Positions 2,129 through 20,405 of a stretch of DNA of 64,000 nt are shown piece by piece. The translations under genes were made by a program, and so were the position numbers. This stretch comes from an uncultured Bacteroidales bacterium (GTDB lineage: Bacteria; Bacteroidota; Bacteroidia; Bacteroidales; Bacteroidaceae). The stretch lies in assembly GCA_902781515.1 (NCBI GenBank), contig CACZJU010000004.1, forward strand, positions 124,001 through 188,000, read 5' to 3'. Within the stretch, counting starts at the first letter, position 1, and every line of letters begins with the position of its first letter. The notes below the pieces were generated by a model. It was not told the origin of the DNA and made no database searches. It saw only the letters and a program-made list of their open reading frames with translations.

Positions 2129-5100
2129 ATGGTAAAAAGGTTTATTGATGAGAATGGATTGTATCAACCAGATTACGAGCACGATGCCTGTGGTGTAGGT
2201 ATGGTGGTGAATATTCATGGTGGTAAGAGCCATGAGCTGGTGGATAATGCGCTGAAGGTGTTGGAGAATATGGAGCACCGCGGAGCCGAGACGCGCGATA
2301 AGACAGGTGACGGTGCCGGTATTATGGTGCAGATTCCCCACGAGTTTATCCTTTTGCAGGGTATTCCCGTTCCGGAAAAGGGAAGATATGGCACAGGACT
2401 GGTGTTCCTTCCCAAGGAAGAAAAGGCGCAGGAGGAAATTCTGAGTATCGTTATAGAGGAAGTGGAGCGCGAGGGTCTGCAGTTGATGCATGTGCGCGTT
2501 GTTCCAACTAATCCGGAGGTGCTTGGTGCTGCTGCCCGCGAAGTGGAGCCAGATATCAAGCAGATTTTCGTTACTGGAGTTGACGAAGAAAGGGCAGAGG
2601 CCTTTGACTGTATCTTATATAAAATAAGGAAAAGGATTGAAAATAGAGTTACTGCAGAGGATTTCTACATCTGCTCTCTCTCAAGTAAGAATATAATATA
2701 TAAAGGTATGCTGACATCGGGACAGCTCAGACGCTATTTCCCCGATCTGTCGAATCCTTATTTTACAAGCGGTCTTGCCCTTGTGCATTCACGTTTCTCC
2801 ACTAACACCTTCCCGAAATGGAAGTTGGCTCAGCCTTTCCGCCTGTTGGCGCACAATGGTGAGATAAACACAATTCGTGGTAATCGCGGTTGGATGAAGG
2901 CACGTGAGAGCGTGCTGAACAACGGTAAGTTGGGCGATATAAGCGACTTGAGACCTATCTTGCAGAAAGGAATGAGCGATTCTGCCAGTCTCGACAATGT
3001 TCTGGAGTTCTTGGTTATGAGCGGTTTGTCGTTACCACAGGCTATGGCGATACTGGTGCCGGAGAGCTTCAACGACAAGAACCCCATCAGTGAGGACCTG
3101 AAGGCGTTTTATGAGTATCATTCGATATTGATGGAACCGTGGGATGGACCGGCTGCTTTGCTGTTGTCCGATGGACGTTTTGCCGGCGGTATGCTCGACC
3201 GCAATGGTCTGCGTCCCAGTCGTTACACTATCACCAAGCAGGGAATGATGGTGGTTGCAAGCGAGGTCGGAGTAATGGATTTCGAGCCAAACGACGTAGT
3301 GAGAAAAGGACGTTTGCAGCCTGGTAAGATACTGATAATAGACACTTTGGAGGGCAAGATATATTACGATGGCGAAATAAAGGAACAGCTCGCCAAGGCC
3401 CATCCTTACCGCGAATGGTTGAGTACCAATCGTATTCAGTTGGAGAAATTGAAGAGCGGTCGTCATGTGGAGAACTCCGTTGAGAACTTCGAGCGCAAAC
3501 TCATAAACTTCGGTTTCGGACAGGAAGACATTGACAAAACTATCGTTCCTATGGCTACAGCAGGACAGGAACCGGTGGCTGCTATGGGTAACGACACTCC
3601 GCTGGCAGTAGTCAGCGACCGTCCGCAGATATTCTTCAACTACTTCCGTCAGCAGTTCGCACAGGTGACGAATCCTGCCATCGACCCCATTCGTGAAGAG
3701 TTGGTGATGTCGCTGACCGAGTATATCGGAGCCGTGGGTACGAATATCCTGACTCCTGACGCAAGCAACTGCAAGATGGTGCGTCTGCCACAGCCAGTGC
3801 TCACTAACACACAGCTCGACATCCTCTGCAATATCCGCTACAAGGGCTTCAACACTAAGAAGTTGGCGATGACATTCAAAGCCCACTCTCGCCCCCTCCC
3901 AATGGGAGGGGAGGTTGAATACCCCCATGCTGGAGAGGATTTACAGCAAGCACTGGATAAACTATGTAAAGATGCAGAGCAAGCAGTGGATGATGGTTAT
4001 AACTACATCATTCTGACGGATAAGGTATCTGAAGCCCCCTCCCTTGGGGAGGGGATGGGGTGGGCATTTATCCCTTCCCTGTTAGCAGTATCGGCTGTAC
4101 ACCACTATCTTATCAGTGTAGGAAAACGCGTTCAGACGGCGTTGATAGTGGAGAGCGGAGAAATTCGCGAGGTGATGCACGCAGCATTGCTGTTGGGCTA
4201 TGGCGCAAGTGCTATCTGTCCGTATATGACATTCGCCGTGCTCGACGACCTTGTCAAGAAACACAAGATTCAGGAGGAATATACTACTGCTGAAGCCCAT
4301 TACATCAAGGCTGTTGATAAGGGCTTGAAGAAGATTATGTCGAAGATGGGTATTTCCACCATCCGCAGCTATCGTGGTGCCAAGATTTTCGAGAGTATCG
4401 GACTTAGCGAGGATTTGCTGAGGAGATATTTCGGAACAGAGGTCAGCACAATCGGTGGCATAGGACTGAAGGAAATCGCCCGCGATGCCATCCGTTTGCA
4501 CGACGAAGCATATCTCTCACCTCTTGACTCTCGCCTCTCGCCACTCAAAAACAATGGGCAGTTCTCGTGGCGTAAGGACGGAATACTTCATGCGTGGAAT
4601 CCCGAAACCATTGCCAACTTGCAGATTGCCACACGTCTTGGTTCGTATAAGAAGTTCAAGGAGTGGGCTGCCATCGTGGATAATGGCGAAAAACCGATAT
4701 TCATACGTGACTTCTTTGATTTCAAGAGAGCTGCAATGCCTACTCCCATAGATGAGGTGGAGCCCGTGGAGAGTATTGTCAGACATTTCGTCACTGGAGC
4801 AATGTCTTTCGGAGCACTTAGCATTGAGGCTCATCAGGCATTGGCACTGGCGATGAATAAGCTCGGAACGCGCAGCAATACCGGTGAAGGCGGCGAGGAT
4901 AATGCCCGTTACCACACTGAGGTTGACGGCGTATCGCTGTCCAGCAAGACAAAACAGATTGCCAGCGGTCGATTTGGAGTCACTGCCGAGTATCTTGTCA
5001 ATGCCGAGGAGATACAGATTAAGGTGGCACAGGGTGCTAAGCCCGGTGAGGGCGGTCAGTTGCCAGGCTTTAAGGTCAATGAGATTATCGCCAAAACCAG

Positions 5101-6718
5101 AAACGCAATTCCTGGCATCAGTCTTATTTCACCTCCACCTCACCACGATATTTACAGTATTGAAGACCTTGCCCAACTGATATTCGACCTGAAGAATGTG
5201 AACCCGACGGCTGCTGTCAGTGTGAAGCTGGTAGCGGAAAGCGGTGTCGGCACTATTGCCGCAGGTGTGGCTAAGGCCAAGGCTGACCTCATCGTTATCA
5301 GTGGGGCAGAGGGTGGTACTGGAGCAAGTCCTGCATCGTCAATGCGCTTTGCCGGTATCTCGCCTGAGATTGGTCTGGCAGAGACTCAGCAGACTCTCGT
5401 CATTAACGGCTTGAGAAATCAGGTGCGTCTGCAGACCGACGGTCAGTTGAAGACGGCAAAGGACGTCATTATCATGGCGATGCTCGGTGCCGACGAGTTT
5501 TCTTTCGGAACTTTGCCTCTCATCGTGCTTGGTTGCGTGATGATGCGTAAATGTAACACAAATACCTGTCCTGTAGGTGTAGCAACACAGGATGAACGTC
5601 TGCGTCAGCGTTTCATGGGACGTGCCGAGTATGTGGTGAACTTCTTTACTTTCCTCGCTCAGCAGGTACGTGAATACCTCGCTGAAATCGGCGTGCACTC
5701 GTTGAAGGAAATCATCGGACATACGGAACTTATAGTTCAGAATGAAGAATTAAGAATGAAGAATGAAGAACTGGATGTTGCTGAGAAGTGGAAGACTATC
5801 GATTTCAGCCGTTTGCTGCATCGTCCCGAAACGGAGGCTCCCCTTTATTGGGATCGTGGTCAGTTCACGAAGGTGACCGGTGTGAAGGACGAGGAAATCA
5901 TCCGTGCTGCATCCAAGGCTATTGAGAATGGTGAGGAGATAAGTCTCGACTATGCCATACGCAATACTGACCGAGCTGTGGGAACGATGCTTTCAGGCGT
6001 AATTGCCAAACGCTATGGCGAGGCTGGTTTGCCTGACGGTACAATCCGTCTTAAGTTCAAGGGCTCTGCAGGACAGTCGTTCGGTGCTTTTGCCGTTCGC
6101 GGTCTCGATATGCGCCTTGAGGGTGAGACAAACGACTATTTCGGAAAGGGCCTTTCTGGTGGACGCATTAGCATCCTGCCTCCAGTGCGCAGAAACGACG
6201 ATTTCATCGTGGAAAATAACATCATTGCAGGTAACACCGGACTTTATGGTGCCACCAGTGGCGAACTGTATGTGAATGGTTGTGTTGGTGAGCGCTTTGC
6301 CGTACGTAACTCTGGTGCTGTTGCCGTTGTGGAAGGTGCTGGTGACCACTGTTGTGAATATATGACGGGTGGACGAGTTGTCGTACTCGGTAAGACGGGA
6401 CGTAATTTCGCTGCCGGTATGAGTGGTGGTGTTGCCTATGTCTATGACCGCGACCATACCTTCGATTTCTTCTGCAATATGGATATGGTGGAAATTAACC
6501 TTGTGGAGGAATCTGCTCACCGTAAGGAGTTGCTGGAACTCGTGCGTCGTCATTATTTACACACTGGAAGTCCACTTGCAGGACGTATGCTTGACGACTG
6601 GAACCGCTACGTTGACGACTTCATTCAAGTCGTTCCTATCGAGTACAAACGTGTGCTTGAAGAGGAGAAAATGGCTCGTCTGCATGAGAAGATTGCCGAC
6701 ATACAGCGCGACTACTAA
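2129..6718 (+). CDS. gltB: Glutamate synthase (GOGAT) large subunit
   Basis: This enzyme transfers the amide nitrogen of glutamine to 2-oxoglutarate to give two glutamates; electrons come from the GltD subunit. In order it has a class II glutaminase domain with nucleophile Cys21 (DACGVG, so a 20-residue propeptide is presumably removed), a central domain, the FMN-binding synthase barrel (TGAMSFGALS, GEGGEDNARY, GGTGASPASS), a 3Fe-4S site with Cx5Cx4C in the CVMMRKCNTNTCPVG segment, and the C-terminal beta-helix rich in Gly. The 1529-residue length fits the family. Several short segments (near residues 588-594, 635-642, 796-807 and 1202-1216) are repeat-like sequence read in frame; see the repeat entries. 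gltD follows after 38 bp. Confidence 0.97.
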   Translation: MVKRFIDENGLYQPDYEHDACGVGMVVNIHGGKSHELVDNALKVLENMEHRGAETRDKTGDGAGIMVQIPHEFILLQGIPVPEKGRYGTGLVFLPKEEKAQEEILSIVIEEVEREGLQLMHVRVVPTNPEVLGAAAREVEPDIKQIFVTGVDEERAEAFDCILYKIRKRIENRVTAEDFYICSLSSKNIIYKGMLTSGQLRRYFPDLSNPYFTSGLALVHSRFSTNTFPKWKLAQPFRLLAHNGEINTIRGNRGWMKARESVLNNGKLGDISDLRPILQKGMSDSASLDNVLEFLVMSGLSLPQAMAILVPESFNDKNPISEDLKAFYEYHSILMEPWDGPAALLLSDGRFAGGMLDRNGLRPSRYTITKQGMMVVASEVGVMDFEPNDVVRKGRLQPGKILIIDTLEGKIYYDGEIKEQLAKAHPYREWLSTNRIQLEKLKSGRHVENSVENFERKLINFGFGQEDIDKTIVPMATAGQEPVAAMGNDTPLAVVSDRPQIFFNYFRQQFAQVTNPAIDPIREELVMSLTEYIGAVGTNILTPDASNCKMVRLPQPVLTNTQLDILCNIRYKGFNTKKLAMTFKAHSRPLPMGGEVEYPHAGEDLQQALDKLCKDAEQAVDDGYNYIILTDKVSEAPSLGEGMGWAFIPSLLAVSAVHHYLISVGKRVQTALIVESGEIREVMHAALLLGYGASAICPYMTFAVLDDLVKKHKIQEEYTTAEAHYIKAVDKGLKKIMSKMGISTIRSYRGAKIFESIGLSEDLLRRYFGTEVSTIGGIGLKEIARDAIRLHDEAYLSPLDSRLSPLKNNGQFSWRKDGILHAWNPETIANLQIATRLGSYKKFKEWAAIVDNGEKPIFIRDFFDFKRAAMPTPIDEVEPVESIVRHFVTGAMSFGALSIEAHQALALAMNKLGTRSNTGEGGEDNARYHTEVDGVSLSSKTKQIASGRFGVTAEYLVNAEEIQIKVAQGAKPGEGGQLPGFKVNEIIAKTRNAIPGISLISPPPHHDIYSIEDLAQLIFDLKNVNPTAAVSVKLVAESGVGTIAAGVAKAKADLIVISGAEGGTGASPASSMRFAGISPEIGLAETQQTLVINGLRNQVRLQTDGQLKTAKDVIIMAMLGADEFSFGTLPLIVLGCVMMRKCNTNTCPVGVATQDERLRQRFMGRAEYVVNFFTFLAQQVREYLAEIGVHSLKEIIGHTELIVQNEELRMKNEELDVAEKWKTIDFSRLLHRPETEAPLYWDRGQFTKVTGVKDEEIIRAASKAIENGEEISLDYAIRNTDRAVGTMLSGVIAKRYGEAGLPDGTIRLKFKGSAGQSFGAFAVRGLDMRLEGETNDYFGKGLSGGRISILPPVRRNDDFIVENNIIAGNTGLYGATSGELYVNGCVGERFAVRNSGAVAVVEGAGDHCCEYMTGGRVVVLGKTGRNFAAGMSGGVAYVYDRDHTFDFFCNMDMVEINLVEESAHRKELLELVRRHYLHTGSPLAGRMLDDWNRYVDDFIQVVPIEYKRVLEEEKMARLHEKIADIQRDY
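3893..3911. repeat. In-frame GC palindrome inside gltB (first)
   Basis: CCCCTCCCA and TGGGAGGGG are separated by one base and are translated as part of RPLPMGGEV in GltB. The segment lies just before a conserved helical region of the central domain, where related enzymes usually have a short loop. It resembles the intergenic palindrome at 68-85. Confidence 0.6.
4036..4054. repeat. In-frame GC palindrome inside gltB (second)
   Basis: CCCCTCCC, two T bases and GGGGAGGGG form a palindrome translated as APSLGEGMG in the loop before the conserved IPSLLAVSAVHH strand of GltB. It belongs to the same class as 3893-3911, only about 140 bp upstream. Confidence 0.6.
4517..4547 (+). repeat. CT-rich repeat-like segment read in frame in gltB
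   Basis: The run built from CTCTTGACTC / TCGCCTCTCG units is translated as SPLDSRLSPL. CT-rich strings of this kind look unlike the surrounding codons. Its membership in a dispersed repeat family is inferred from composition only. Confidence 0.35.
5733..5776 (+). repeat. AT-rich repeat (GAAGAATTAAGAATGA type) read in frame in gltB
   Basis: Iterations of AATGAAGAA / TTAAGAATGAAG are translated as VQNEELRMKNEELDV at the junction between the synthase barrel and the C-terminal beta-helix. The tandem character and AT content differ sharply from neighbouring gltB codons. Confidence 0.5.
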
Positions 6719-17398: not shown

Positions 17399-17531
17399 TT
17401 CCTACTCTATGTTAAAATCAGTGGCAAAGTTACAAATTTTTTGCAACAAAATTGCTTCTAAAGCGGGAAAACTCGCAAATCTGGACTCATTTGATTTTTC
17501 AGCCCGACAATAAATCGGAAACAAATTTGCG

Positions 17532-17567
17532 TTTTTCCATTTTCAAACCGTTTTTGAGTTAATAATT
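17532..17567. repeat. Direct repeat, left copy, flanking the repressor operon
   Basis: This copy contains CCATTTTCAAACCGTTTTT then GAGTTAATAATT and closely matches 18548-18582. It begins the accessory islet and abuts the stop codon of the lipoprotein gene. On the minus strand it reads TTAACTCAAAAACGGTTTGA then AAATGGAAA, a gene-start-like sequence that opens only a 13-codon frame. Confidence 0.65.
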
Positions 17568-18153
17568 ATTTTTCAAACTTACCACCGTCTATTATATAAC
17601 TTCGCGCCATCCCTCTAAGGTTAAAAACATCATTAAGAGGTATGTCAATAGGACCCTTGTTAGTATGTATTTCCCCTGTTACCAAACCTGACAAATTGGA
17701 TAGCATCTTGAAACATTCTACAGAACTATCGTCTGAGGCGTGGAAACCCGCCATCGCAATACCTCTATCGTCTATAGTTTCTGATACAAACGGGAACACC
17801 TTAAACTTTATTCCTTCATAATTAAACTCCAGCATATCAATTTTGGTGACACCCTTGTAGAAAAGCACCACACTTATCCTAAAGCCGTCTGCATACGAAG
17901 TAGGCTTTTCTGACAACAAGTTCCAGAAGTGTAGGTCATAACTTGCAGTAAGCGTTTCGCACTTCCAAGATAGTGATATACAATTATTTTTTTCGTCGTA
18001 CTCAGCCTTTATGTCGGAATCTTCATCGTTATAGTCAGAAACTATCTTTTCCAAAGCCTCACGTTCTTTTTCTTTCAATTCCGATGAGTCTTGCACACGA
18101 GAACAAGCTGCGAGCATGAAGAAAGCAGCCATTAGTGTAATTGCCTTTTTCAT
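17566..18153 (-). CDS. Lipoprotein of unknown function in repressor operon
   Basis: This 195-residue protein has a signal peptide with lipobox LAAC (Cys17), followed by a charged helical stretch (SSELKEKEREALEKIVSDYN) and a mixed alpha/beta remainder. I recognise no family. Its ATG overlaps the stop codon of the repressor gene (ATGA), so the two are translated together. The two-gene unit is bracketed by 35-bp direct repeats. Confidence 0.78.
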   Translation of the reverse strand: MKKAITLMAAFFMLAACSRVQDSSELKEKEREALEKIVSDYNDEDSDIKAEYDEKNNCISLSWKCETLTASYDLHFWNLLSEKPTSYADGFRISVVLFYKGVTKIDMLEFNYEGIKFKVFPFVSETIDDRGIAMAGFHASDDSSVECFKMLSNLSGLVTGEIHTNKGPIDIPLNDVFNLRGMARSYIIDGGKFEK

Positions 18154-18554
18154 GCTTTCTTTGATTTGTTCTTATACTGGGCCAGTTCGTCCTGAAGAGC
18201 GTCTATTGTGGCGTTCTTTGTCTTGATAGTCTCTTGCAGCAATTTTATTGTGTCAATAAGAGTGTCAAGACGGGCATCATTTTTTTGTTCTGCTTCGTCA
18301 GTTGTAACAGATGGCTCAACAAGATACATGTTGCCGCTCCCACGCAAAAGCCATTCTGCCGATAGTTCTCCGTAATTAGCAAGGGTGTTGATGACAGTTT
18401 CAAGAGACAGGTCTCTTTTGCCGTGAAACTGGTTGTGGAGGGTTGCGTGCTTCATCCCGATGCCTCCTGCAAACGCATTTAATGTCAAGCCTGTTTGCTC
18501 TTTGAATTCGACAAGCCGATTAAAAACATCTTGTCTAAAGTCTTTCGTTTCCAT
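18150..18554 (-). CDS. CI-like helix-turn-helix repressor
   Basis: This 134-residue protein has an N-terminal XRE/CI-type HTH (residues about 8-66: LTLNAFAGGIGMKHATLHNQ, then SAEWLLRGSGNMY, the ending typical of Bacteroidetes phage repressors) and a C-terminal coiled coil (LDTLIDTIKLLQETIKTKNA) for dimerisation. It has no LexA-like protease part. It is transcribed away from a plus-strand promoter that lies among TTGCGCCA repeats, which suggests it represses that promoter. The start codon is inside the right copy of the flanking direct repeat. Confidence 0.85.
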   Translation of the reverse strand: METKDFRQDVFNRLVEFKEQTGLTLNAFAGGIGMKHATLHNQFHGKRDLSLETVINTLANYGELSAEWLLRGSGNMYLVEPSVTTDEAEQKNDARLDTLIDTIKLLQETIKTKNATIDALQDELAQYKNKSKKA

Positions 18555-18582
18555 TTTTCAAACCGTTTTTAAGTTAAAAATT
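18548..18582. repeat. Direct repeat, right copy, including the repressor start
   Basis: This copy contains CCATTTTTCAAACCGTTTTT then AAGTTAAAAATT and matches 17532-17567 with few differences. The shorter core TTTCAAACCG recurs at 19109-19118, inside the loop of a hairpin, and a looser form is at 20317-20326. Confidence 0.65.
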
Positions 18583-18590
18583 GTGTCAAA

Positions 18591-18676
18591 TGGCGTTATT
18601 TTTCACAAAATTGCGCCAGTTGTTGCAATTTTCTCCAAAAAAATTTGGAATAATTGCGCCAAATGTTATACCTTTG
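18591..18676 (+). promoter_or_regulatory. Islet promoter with candidate repressor operators
   Basis: TTTG at 18644-18647 and TACCTTTG at 18669-18676 (21 bp apart) form a plus-strand promoter; transcription would begin near 18684. TTGCGCCA occurs at 18611-18618 and 18654-18661, the second between the two promoter boxes, and an inverted near-copy TGGCGTTA is at 18591-18598. These are natural candidates for binding by the divergent CI-like repressor. Confidence 0.6.
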
Positions 18677-18708
18677 CGGTATCAAATCAATCAATCGAGG
18701 GCAAAGTT

Positions 18709-18786
18709 ATGACAAAAACGGCAATTTTCCAAGCAAATCTTTCAAAAACTCTCGTTCTCGGCTTGATTGTAACAAGCGGATGCTAA
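18709..18786 (+). CDS. Possible 25-residue leader peptide
   Basis: ATG at 18709 opens MTKTAIFQANLSKTLVLGLI then VTSGC and a stop, preceded by GAGGG seven bases upstream. It is the first frame after the predicted start of transcription. Its last codons (LIVTSG) are the left arm of a 12-bp stem closing the tRNA-like RNA domain, so translation would compete with folding, as in attenuators. It could equally be a chance frame. Confidence 0.3.
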   Translation: MTKTAIFQANLSKTLVLGLIVTSGC

Positions 18787-18886
18787 TTTGCGTGTTCGCA
18801 GGTATGCACCAAGAGGGGTGCAGCAGGTTCGAGTCCTGGCATGACCGCCATTGAAGAAGAGTTCTTTGACAGACTGTTACAATCAA
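18763..18886 (+). ncRNA. Structured RNA domain with tRNA-like cloverleaf
   Basis: TTGATTGTAACA (18763-18774) pairs perfectly with TGTTACAATCAA (18875-18886). Inside, GCGGATGC (18776-18783) pairs with GCAT (18839-18842) and CCGC (18845-18848) over a 2-base bulge, like an acceptor stem. It encloses three hairpins: TGCG/CGCA (18789-18800), TGCACC/GGTGCA (18805-18822, 6-base loop) and CAGG/CCTG with the T-loop consensus TTCGAGT (18824-18838), then GCCA at 18847-18850. It is not a normal tRNA: the D-loop lacks GG and the anticodon-position loop is AAGAGG. Structures were paired by eye. Confidence 0.6.
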
Positions 18887-18928
18887 ACATATTTAGAGCT
18901 CGCCATTGGACGCCAAAGCTACATAAAC

Positions 18929-19182
18929 ACGGGCAAGGCCCGTTAAGGGTAGATAGGGGCGGAGTGAGACGGGGCTGAATGTTCCCCGGAGCAGCGACCA
19001 TTATAACCCAAAGAGAGGGGACGGTCGTAAAGAGTAACGTCGAGCTGCCCGACAGAGAGCAGCGGAGTAGATAACACATTATTAAAATATAAGGCAGGTT
19101 TTCCACATTTTCAAACCGTTCCTGCCTTGGCCATAGCCTCAGCGGAGGCTTGTAAGCGTACACATCGGAACACGCATGGCCA
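18929..19182 (+). ncRNA. Downstream structured RNA, ending in a three-way junction
   Basis: Successive stems are ACGGGC/GCCCGT (18929-18943), CGGGG/CCCCG (18970-18988), CGACC/GGTCG (18995-19027), GCTGC/GCAGC (19044-19063) and AAGGCAGG/CCTGCCTT (19091-19128). They end in a three-way junction: TGGCCAT/ATGGCCA (19128-19134 with 19176-19182) enclosing AGCCTC-AGCG-GAGGCT (19135-19150) and GCGT/ACGC (19156-19175). The first small gene starts 25 bp later. It may be one transcript with 18763-18886: a long leader or a stand-alone RNA. I cannot assign it to a named RNA family. Confidence 0.5.
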
Positions 19183-19206
19183 CTACACCCCTTAATTTTA
19201 ACGACA

Positions 19207-19410
19207 ATGATTAATTTCAAGAAACTGAGTAGTCAGATACACAAGGGAGGTATCGGCTACGTGTTCGAGCCTACGCCCGAGCAACTGGAGAAATCGGACT
19301 GGCAGATATGGAGCCAGGATGCCGTGAGCAAGCGCAAGCTGCTCAGGAAACTCGTCTCCATCATCCGTGACAGAAGTATGAACCACTGGAGAAAGGAGTT
19401 TATGCTATGA
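19207..19410 (+). CDS. Small protein of unknown function (67 aa)
   Basis: This basic 67-residue protein (MINFKKLSSQIHKGGIGYVF onward) is rich in Lys/Arg near its end (SKRKLLRKLVSIIRDRSMNH) and could bind nucleic acid. I do not recognise it. It is the first gene after the structured RNA and overlaps the next gene by 4 bp (ATGA), suggesting translational coupling. Confidence 0.6.
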   Translation: MINFKKLSSQIHKGGIGYVFEPTPEQLEKSDWQIWSQDAVSKRKLLRKLVSIIRDRSMNHWRKEFML

Positions 19411-19652
19411 GAGTGAGTTTAGACAATGTTCCGCTTGCCACCCAGTCAGCGATGCTCCAGAACATCTTGCTGGCATTCGAGCATGAGACATTCAGTAAGG
19501 AACTTGCCGCACACATAGTAGGCGGTACTTCCAAACTGGAGAGACTCATTGCAGCGGAGAAAGTTCAGGCAAACAAACCATGCTACAAGCAAAACGGCAA
19601 ATGGTTCGTGTGTGCTCCACAGGTGTTGGTACACTGCAAGAACCGCCGATAA
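19407..19652 (+). CDS. Small protein of unknown function (81 aa)
   Basis: This 81-residue protein has a helical first half and a C-terminal segment ERLIAAEKVQANKPCYKQNG then KWFVCAP that resembles the end of a small winged or helix-turn-helix excisionase-like fold, where a lysine-rich wing follows the helix pair. That is a weak resemblance and no function is claimed. It is translationally coupled to the 67-residue gene. Confidence 0.6.
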   Translation: MRVSLDNVPLATQSAMLQNILLAFEHETFSKELAAHIVGGTSKLERLIAAEKVQANKPCYKQNGKWFVCAPQVLVHCKNRR

Positions 19653-19682
19653 AACACAAGTTAAACCGACAATATATAAAAC

Positions 19683-19910
19683 ATGAATACATTAGCACAA
19701 CGATTCACAGGTTCCGTTTACGTTGACGGCAACCTGTTCACCCATCCTAACAGGCTTATGGGTGTTGCCGACACTACTCGGAACAAGGTATTGAAGCAAT
19801 TACGTGAGAACGTGCGTGAGACCCTGACAGAGGAATATATCAGCCGACACGAAATCACACTACGCATCAAGAACCCCAAGACTAAGGAGGTAGAATCTAT
19901 TGACTTTTAA
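19683..19910 (+). CDS. Small protein of unknown function (75 aa)
   Basis: This 75-residue protein (MNTLAQRFTGSVYVDGNLFT onward) has a beta-rich start, a charged helix (TTRNKVLKQLRENVRETLTE) and a final strand pair. No family is recognised. It lies 30 bp after the 81-residue gene in the same direction. Confidence 0.6.
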   Translation: MNTLAQRFTGSVYVDGNLFTHPNRLMGVADTTRNKVLKQLRENVRETLTEEYISRHEITLRIKNPKTKEVESIDF

Positions 19911-19922
19911 TTTGGAGCAGCT

Positions 19923-20171
19923 ATGAAGAAGATTATTATTTCAATCGTATGGATGTCTATCGTGTACCTACCATGTTTTTTGATATTCTGCGAAGGAGGC
20001 TATTCACTGTTGAGTTTCATTGGTATTGACAATGGTCCATACCTCGTGAACCTCATCGGTCTATTATATTCTGCATTTCTGTTGAAGTATCACCGTTTGT
20101 TGATACCAGACTGGATGCAGAAGACGGTTGACAATCTGGTCCGTGAGGATAGGGTGTCAAACCTCGATTGA
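19923..20171 (+). CDS. Small membrane protein of unknown function (82 aa)
   Basis: This 82-residue protein has two hydrophobic segments (IIISIVWMSIVYLPCFLIF, then PYLVNLIGLLYSAFLLKY) and a charged C-terminal tail, so it is probably an inner-membrane hairpin protein. It is the last gene of the islet operon, 12 bp after the previous gene. Size and layout would suit a phage- or plasmid-type membrane accessory protein, but this is only a guess. Confidence 0.6.
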   Translation: MKKIIISIVWMSIVYLPCFLIFCEGGYSLLSFIGIDNGPYLVNLIGLLYSAFLLKYHRLLIPDWMQKTVDNLVREDRVSNLD

Positions 20172-20190
20172 TTTTATTTAATTCAGGACG

Positions 20191-20212
20191 GGGAGAGGTT
20201 GCCGCCTCTCCC
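20191..20212 (+). terminator. Strong hairpin after the islet operon
   Basis: GGGAGAGG (20191-20198) pairs with CCTCTCCC (20205-20212) over TTGCCG. There is no T-run, so it may be a transcript-end stabiliser or part of the adjacent tRNA-like fold. Confidence 0.5.
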
Positions 20213-20216
20213 TTAC

Positions 20217-20296
20217 GGGCAAATTCGTTCCAGTGTGATTCTTGTGTACCTGTTAGTGCTGGAAGGGAGGTAGGGGTTCGAGTCCCTGTTTGCCCA
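20217..20296 (+). ncRNA. Second tRNA-like fold (acceptor and T-arm)
   Basis: GGGCAAA (20217-20223) pairs perfectly with TTTGCCC (20289-20295), followed by A in the discriminator position. A T-arm-like hairpin with loop TTCGAGT (20277-20283) and GGG/CCC stem precedes it, and TTCCAG/CTGGAA (20228-20233 with 20259-20264) forms a central hairpin. No D-arm or anticodon arm is recognisable, so it is not a working tRNA gene. It may be a decayed tRNA, an integration remnant, or a tRNA mimic related to 18776-18850. Confidence 0.45.
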
Positions 20297-20405
20297 CGAT
20301 TTTCATAAGCTTGAAAATTCAAACCGTGACATTAGTGGTACGCGAGTATAGCGAATGTTAAGTTTAATTTTTAATTTTAATTTTTAATTTTGATTTTATT
20401 CGTAA

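Follow-up and report, generated by a model that had tools for sequence, protein, structure and literature searches.

Within a window of 64,000 nucleotides (nt) from an uncultured Bacteroidales bacterium (contig CACZJU010000004.1, positions 124,001 to 188,000 of the forward strand), a block at about 17424-20369 is of phage origin and lies inserted between two host genes. The explanation regarded here as the best one, held as a whole with a confidence slightly above even, has three joint parts: the block would be the left end, on the side of the attachment site attL, of an integrated temperate Bacteroidales phage whose remainder was lost; the 520 nt in its middle that look empty would be the untranslated leader of the phage early transcript; and this leader would serve the early operon through boxA-dependent antitermination and an element of translation control. 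Comparison of related loci shows that the leader has a conserved RNA structure, which includes a pseudoknot and a three-way junction.

Conserved structure of the leader RNA

The leader was found in nine distinct loci among those compared (phage contigs, prophages and host loci, given L-numbers here): the window, L007, L013, L014, L015, L011, L024, L025 and L026. The eight relatives share 73-85% DNA identity over the aligned leader pieces, and DNA homology spans the repressor gene, the leader, the small open reading frames (ORFs) and a closing fold. The elements of the leader and its surroundings in the window are the following:

18611..18618, plus strand: TTGCGCCA repeat 1, possible operator, common to the window and L007
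18654..18661, plus strand: TTGCGCCA repeat 2, possible operator, common to the window and L007
18669-18676, plus strand: -7 box TACCTTTG of the early promoter, with TTTG 21 nt upstream
18801..18846, plus strand: first tRNA-like structure (TLS1), with a 4-bp closing helix, a hairpin and a T-arm (CAGG-TTCGAGT-CCTG); helices 1-3 of alignment A2
18861..18871, plus strand: predicted boxA antitermination element GTTCTTTGACA, by sequence match
18898..19065, plus strand: core leader RNA, with the long bulged hairpin P1, hairpins P2 and P3/P3a and an H-type pseudoknot; alignment A4
19039..19063, plus strand: H-type pseudoknot P4/P5 (GTCG/CGAC and GCTGC/GCAGC); A4 helices 8 and 9
19093..19126, plus strand: P6 hairpin GGCAGG/CCTGCC, from a single-sequence fold, with pairing letters seen by eye in L015, L014 and L011
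19129..19181, plus strand: P7 three-way junction, with the loop ACATCGGAAC at 19162-19171, ending 25 nt before the ORF1 start
20217..20296, plus strand: second tRNA-like structure (TLS2), with a 7-bp acceptor GGGCAAA/TTTGCCC, a middle arm with an enlarged loop and a T-arm, no D-arm; same plan in relatives

Eight rows were aligned without the use of structure (A2), leaving out L026, a contig that begins inside TLS1. Among the 62 pairs named in them, 96.7% of the cells are standard and 29 pairs show changes on both sides, a count as high in 0 of 500 shuffles; slid along the alignment as a control, the named structure pairs 36-43% of the cells. RNAalifold independently recovered most of these helices, with 34 of its 80 predicted pairs changed on both sides, and added stems of P1. 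A first stem guess, TTGG/CCAA (A2 helix 4), has one pair broken in 2 of 8 rows and was dropped; the P1 stems of RNAalifold replace it in A4. This second alignment, of nine rows over the core and the pseudoknot, shows both-side changes in 24 of 41 pairs, with 95.6% of the cells paired and none of 500 shuffles reaching as much. The pseudoknot itself was chosen by eye, and its stems 1 and 2 carry both-side changes in 2 of 4 and 4 of 5 pairs, with 83.3% and 100% of the cells paired, respectively. The core also contains many conserved unpaired stretches, and the region of P6, which aligns poorly, was left out of the count.

The three-way junction, referred to below as the CATCGGAAC element, was counted separately: 6 of its 16 pairs have both-side changes (alignment A5; 0 of 500 shuffles), and over 15 loci, whose stems were entered by hand with the letters verified in each, 134 of 135 cells across nine pairs are standard (0 of 2000 shuffles). 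A sixteenth locus, L073b, was dropped from this test for its overlapping stem letters, the pattern having failed to confirm it. An earlier note, made from this DNA alone, had seen many strong stems and a three-way junction here and had looked to compensatory changes in homologues; such changes are present, the junction is real, and the conservation of the stems is confirmed by covariation, not by folding energy. The same note had found no convincing protein gene in the leader, and this holds as well: of the 63 insertions and deletions that separate the window from seven relatives, 54 have lengths not divisible by 3, and every reading frame is interrupted in at least one of the eight leader rows. 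A protein across 18800-19200 was rejected on either strand, the 145-aa minus-strand ORF of the window not being kept in frame.

The RNA matches no named family. Rfam gave nothing at gathering thresholds in the window, which also led to the rejection of a transfer-messenger RNA there, and its eight matches at E up to 10 in 18500-20400 all lie far below gathering scores. In the relatives, the sole Rfam match inside the leader is a true tRNA in L011, a tRNA-Met at 4409-4480 that is inserted, with further T-arm sequences, between the junction and ORF1. No DNA match to the leader appeared in phage and plasmid collections, and no paper on it was found in a literature search by titles and abstract openings, with most subscription papers outside its scope.

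Both tRNA-like structures are conserved. Helices 1-3 of TLS1 have 96.9, 97.9 and 100% of their cells paired, with one mismatch in the closing helix of the window, and TLS2 (arms by eye) keeps one plan while its letters change: each of the 10 loci read has an acceptor of 5-7 pairs (L007 forms 5 of 7), a middle arm and a T-arm, and no D-arm. Neither is a tRNA: ARAGORN and Rfam returned none, and each has only an acceptor-like helix, one other arm and a T-arm. The cloverleaf that the earlier note proposed gives way to a conserved three-helix fold with a T-arm, and its second tRNA-like fold stands, though without a D-arm. It has to be considered whether the leader and these folds are functionless relics of a decaying phage tRNA array, in keeping with the true tRNA-Met in the leader of L011 and with tRNA-scored genes bearing long insertions nearby in L042 and L021. 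Selection is nevertheless evident from the nine loci, which combine compensatory changes with invariant loops, and the covariation largely contradicts this idea, because decay would break pairs; it is held to be very improbable.

Other Bacteroidales phages have tRNA-like genes near their relative of ORF2 (L021 at 4260-4369, L042 at 4121-4278 and 5606-5737, L046 at about 4378-4499), in which an acceptor, a D-arm and a T-arm are recognizable by eye, with an insert of tens of nucleotides in the anticodon region. Those of L021 and L042 are scored as tRNA by Rfam; the L046 copy was read by eye only and has no Rfam match.

A phage end between two host genes

The genes and limits of the block are these:

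17424..17433, minus strand: attL core GCAAAGTTAC (minus strand GTAACTTTGC), left limit of the phage homology and presumed -7 box of the gene for a CDP-alcohol phosphatidyltransferase, as the adjoining host gene is assigned by family
17566-18153, minus strand: putative lipoprotein, 195 aa; a lipoprotein-like ORF is at the same place in L015, L024 and L025
18150-18554, minus strand: helix-turn-helix (HTH) repressor, 134 aa; phrog_8 2.7e-8, phrog_2328 5.5e-8, phrog_4 6.9e-7
19207-19410, plus strand: ORF1, 67 aa, 84-87% identical in three phage contigs
19407-19652, plus strand: ORF2, 81 aa, phrog_18744 (2.1e-21)
19683-19910, plus strand: ORF3, 75 aa, present in L024 and L012, absent from L007, L013, L014 and L015
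19923-20171, plus strand: ORF4, 82 aa, small and hydrophobic-looking by eye
20358..20369, no strand: right limit of the phage homology, a deletion or rearrangement junction; the farthest match (L025, 72.3%) stops at 20369

At 17424, homology begins with the prophages L025 (93.6%) and L024 (73.9%), whose own phage edges, at 2626 and 3045, both start at GCAAAnnTAC beside other host DNA. From there the order is attL, lipoprotein, repressor, divergent early promoter, untranslated leader and first early genes, and the block ends by about 20369; the gene layout of the earlier note, with two minus-strand genes and four small plus-strand ORFs over 19207-20171, is confirmed. That note had also asked whether the block comes and goes between strains. 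In two of 11 esterase loci examined in other genomes (L077 and L078), the block is missing and the CDP-alcohol gene directly adjoins, back to back, a gene for a 130-aa lipoprotein. A DNA search for the block in 60 related genomes gave only three scraps of 29-41 nt.

In the intact relatives the gene order runs amidase, integrase, lipoprotein and repressor, then, divergently, leader, ORF1, ORF2, ORF4, TLS2, Erf, exonuclease-like and SSB-like genes. The integrase, Erf and amidase were named through Pfam or PHROGs; the exonuclease-like protein, which has no Pfam hit, and the SSB-like protein are a reading only. This arrangement, in which the repressor and the early operon diverge and genes for integrase and recombination lie close by, is that of the immunity and early region of a temperate phage, and the same kind of phage is integrated in metagenome-assembled genomes from goat reticulum (L024) and roe deer rumen (L025), loci that L039 and L038, respectively, duplicate. 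Five distinct IMG/VR contigs, 61.5, 59.2, 42.2, 22.2 and 15.0 kb long, carry ORF2 at 81-93% identity, and a sixth matches partly; L018 and L016 also carry tail, helicase and ParB-like genes. Within the genus, an ORF2 relative turned up in 5 of 139 genomes: the one that contains the window, two that share its leader (G074 and G079) and two with distant relatives.

The right-hand matches of other relatives end at 20219 (L024), 20300 (L007) and 20303 (L014), no direct copy of the attL core was seen on reading the edge at about 20358-20369 by eye, and queries with Erf and integrase, run without a positive control and so proving nothing by themselves, found no match in the window's own genome, which is 86% complete; the rest of the prophage has therefore probably been deleted. 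An attR at this edge was rejected on reading the sequence: GTAACTTTGCC at about 20477 has the opposite orientation to attL and would suit a role in the host lipoprotein gene's promoter. Likewise, TTTTCAAACCGT repeats (exact copies at 17540, 18555 and 19108, and one with two changes at 20316) are not element ends or attachment sites; relatives have similar repeats at corresponding positions inside the phage homology, whose edge is at 17424, and with two mismatches allowed the window holds 8 against 6.4 expected by chance. The limits of 17532-20326 drawn by the earlier note are accordingly replaced by 17424 to, at most, 20369.

That note had also thought of a phage satellite remnant or a new RNA-based accessory module. 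A compact block inserted between host genes, with a conserved RNA of no named family, does agree with the latter, but the block is not free-standing, the six proteins of the block include no integrase, packaging or structural family (a single weak portal match, 0.0022, fell on the lipoprotein), and its genes follow the order found on phage contigs as long as 61.5 kb, three of the IMG/VR relatives spanning 42-61.5 kb, with no attR seen. A satellite or module with its own mobility is thus scarcely credible, and the attL end and early leader of a temperate phage take its place.

More serious is the idea of an immunity island kept by the host, in which the repressor and the lipoprotein, whose role may be superinfection exclusion, would have been retained by selection after the deletion and the RNA would have come along for the ride. 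The ORFs of the stub are open and full-length relative to their relatives, the core model R1 scores the window highest (201 bits, the window being one of the model's own rows), and Erf and integrase queries are empty elsewhere in the genome. A recent deletion would explain intact genes equally well, however; the case comes from one genome, incomplete as stated and with both searches uncontrolled, and it accounts for the stub and not for the RNA. It is a possible account, clearly less probable than the one adopted here, that is, a phage end with its early leader.

Concerning the proteins, the repressor was called CI-like by the earlier note, which agrees with its position and its HTH, although its Pfam HTH matches fall below cut-offs; its matches phrog_8 and phrog_2328 are phage repressor or regulator families. 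No family of the lipoprotein is above a curated cut-off, and its PHROG matches are weak only. Among 24 ORF2 homologues, a weak HTH_17 signal appears in four and pXO2-72 in five; a PDB search for ORF2 found no match, and its HTH assignment remains weak. PADLOC, run on the six proteins, gave a single weak match (0.0034), to the repressor, and none for the other five.

Some further features were noted in these phages. The sites at 17424 in the window, 3045 in L024 and 2626 in L025 read GTAnnTTTGC, resemble a -7 promoter box and lie beside different host DNA; those of the window and L024 directly precede a host gene, so that the insertion may alter its promoter, and that of L025 is about 270 nt from the nearest long ORF. 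L018 has a reverse transcriptase gene (phrog_1423) at 4977-6305, after a long gene with tail-protein similarity, which we take to resemble a diversity-generating retroelement. L025 has an additional small ORF at 3376-3723, between lipoprotein and repressor, that looks repressor-like by eye and has no Pfam hit.

Promoter, boxA and a possible early-gene switch

In all eight leaders compared, the plus-strand promoter proposed by the earlier note is kept as TAnnTTTG ahead of a conserved AATCAATCAATCG, and in seven of them TTTG lies 20-21 nt further upstream (by eye, read against the promoter consensus of Bacteroidetes); transcription would start near 18684. The TTGCGCCA repeats are present at 18611 and 18654, as that note said, but only the window and L007 have them among the eight leaders; the repressors of these two loci are nearly identical (by eye), a pattern that would fit operators evolving together with the protein that binds them.

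Downstream, GTTCTTTGACA at 18861 is the sole GTTCTTTGA[AC]A in the window, GTTCTTTGAC is present in all nine leaders, and L014 keeps 10 of the 11 bases of boxA. Similar elements lie beside the 16S genes in two of three Bacteroidales loci examined: in L063 the gene is preceded at 187 nt by GTTCTTTGAAA and followed at about 140 nt by GTTCTTTGACA, in the presumed spacer, and L064 has GTTCATTGACA, with one change, before and after it, whereas L065 shows none in the examined flank of about 190 nt before the gene. The boxA at 18861 would, from this likeness, bind NusB-S10 and suppress termination. GTTCTTTAAAA of L. pneumophila Lens, when added to a synthetic CRISPR array, raised expression about tenfold, and boxA is described before long non-coding RNAs (PMC7862264).

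Outside the nine leaders, the junction model R2 found only L048 with default filters; run without filters on four loci selected for having boxA, it also found L036 (E 7e-6) and, weakly, L046 (0.047), and these three junctions all lie after a boxA. There are R2 matches in 5 of 392 other Bacteroidales genomes. A transposase-family gene (phrog_310) follows the junction directly in L068 and L069, with a weak Mu DNA-binding Pfam match in L069. In viral contigs, the pattern AGTAA-N6-ACATCGGAAC occurs in 23 stretches, two of which (L102 and L104) form all four inner pairs and are followed at 27-34 nt by a long ORF, that of L104 beginning like the L069 transposase; the other 21 were rejected as chance-like, and a stricter pattern gave none. 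L073 has two copies of the CATCGGAAC element, at 1088 and 1536, about 450 nt apart before successive genes.

The pathway proposed would start when repression lifts and RNA polymerase initiates near 18684. The boxA RNA would load host NusB-S10, as on rRNA, and the polymerase so loaded would escape Rho over the roughly 350 nt that are not translated and continue into the early genes. The structured core would act in cis as part of the antitermination signal or of a processing signal. The three-way junction just before ORF1 would set its translation, and the tRNA-like folds would be sites where tRNA-processing enzymes trim the transcript. The leader RNA is probably kept before the first genes to keep their transcription running.

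Several points weigh against this explanation. The named structure was favoured in the slide control, having been named from the sequences on which it was counted; folding energy alone is unremarkable, with a single-sequence z of -1.82 and 3 of 100 shuffles folding equally well. An exact boxA precedes ORF2 in only four of 22 more distant ORF2 loci (L036, L042, L046 and L048), and the other 18 lack one. R1 found nothing convincing in those 22 loci with default filters, was not found without filters in four distant leaders (best 9.8 bits, not at the leader), and was not found under strict filters in the 392 other genomes, with no stand-alone copy of the core seen. From the junction to the next start codon there are 128-170 nt at three of ten further sites, against 10-29 nt at the other seven (counted from 14 nt past the loop; L069/L070 and L071/L072 are apparently near-identical pairs). 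The copy in the window, lying in a remnant, may be unused. Finally, a pseudoknotted RNA of a few hundred nucleotides exceeds what known boxA leaders need, so that a role in trans is kept in consideration.

Such a role would make the core a stable, ornate phage RNA, produced in large amounts behind a boxA as rRNA is and released by RNase P and RNase Z through cuts at the tRNA-like folds, with host ribosomes, polymerase or defence as its target. The pseudoknot, the many conserved unpaired stretches, the conserved T-arms and the occurrence of boxA before long non-coding RNAs suit this idea, as does the precedent of GOLLD and ROOL, phage RNAs often near tRNA islands (PMC12286853). On the other hand, the core is always in cis to the early operon in the nine loci, it is not neatly bracketed (TLS1 comes before boxA and core, TLS2 after the ORFs), and the 392 other genomes showed no stand-alone copy; action in trans is only tentatively entertained, at a likelihood well under that of the cis leader. 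A broader and still more doubtful conjecture is that these phages hold a new class of ornate leader RNA, boxA-driven, pseudoknotted, several hundred nucleotides long and with anticodon-less tRNA-like structures, which tRNA-processing enzymes would cut out to act in trans on host machinery, with a separable CATCGGAAC junction controlling early-gene translation in tyrosine-recombinase and Mu-type phages alike.

Comparison with known systems

To our knowledge, little is known of how early genes are switched on in phages of this dominant gut phylum. An RNA family proven by covariation, without an Rfam match and linked by boxA to host Nus factors, bears on this, as does a small cis element, the CATCGGAAC junction, common to unlike phages; the tRNA-like folds pose the question of whether the processing of phage messages makes use of the host's tRNA enzymes.

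As to integration, the attL core of the window (GTAACTTTGC on the minus strand) and the sites GTAATTTTGC and GTATCTTTGC of L024 and L025 are like GTAnnTTTGC, the CTnDOT-type integration site, but the element here is a phage and not a conjugative element, and the stub of the window is without integrase. DUF2693-FD RNA (RF02926) is likewise found in Bacteroidales phage early leaders, lying directly upstream of boxA in L048 (3180-3230) and L046 (3623-3673), an arrangement that L042 and L021 resemble by eye; in the window, TLS1 occupies that place and RF02926 was not found in 18500-20400 (E up to 10). GOLLD and ROOL are also pseudoknotted phage RNAs with tRNA-related neighbours, whereas the RNA of the window has no Rfam match, has a core of about 170 nt and is fixed in an early leader; their Rfam covariance models gave no match on the leader loci.

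The antitermination leaders nut of lambda and put of HK022, the former a boxB hairpin working with the N protein and the latter an RNA acting without protein, are like the leader described here in lying at the head of an early operon, with their RNA elements after the promoter and ahead of the first early genes. Rfam and reading by eye recognized neither an N-type boxB hairpin nor a put sequence in the present leader, whose structured part is several times larger. The boxA of rRNA operons and CRISPR leaders, where NusB-S10 antitermination operates, is alike in the sequences flanking the 16S gene of L063 and in preceding a long, untranslated, structured RNA; it differs in that the boxA of the window belongs to a phage early leader and is followed by a pseudoknotted RNA and protein genes.

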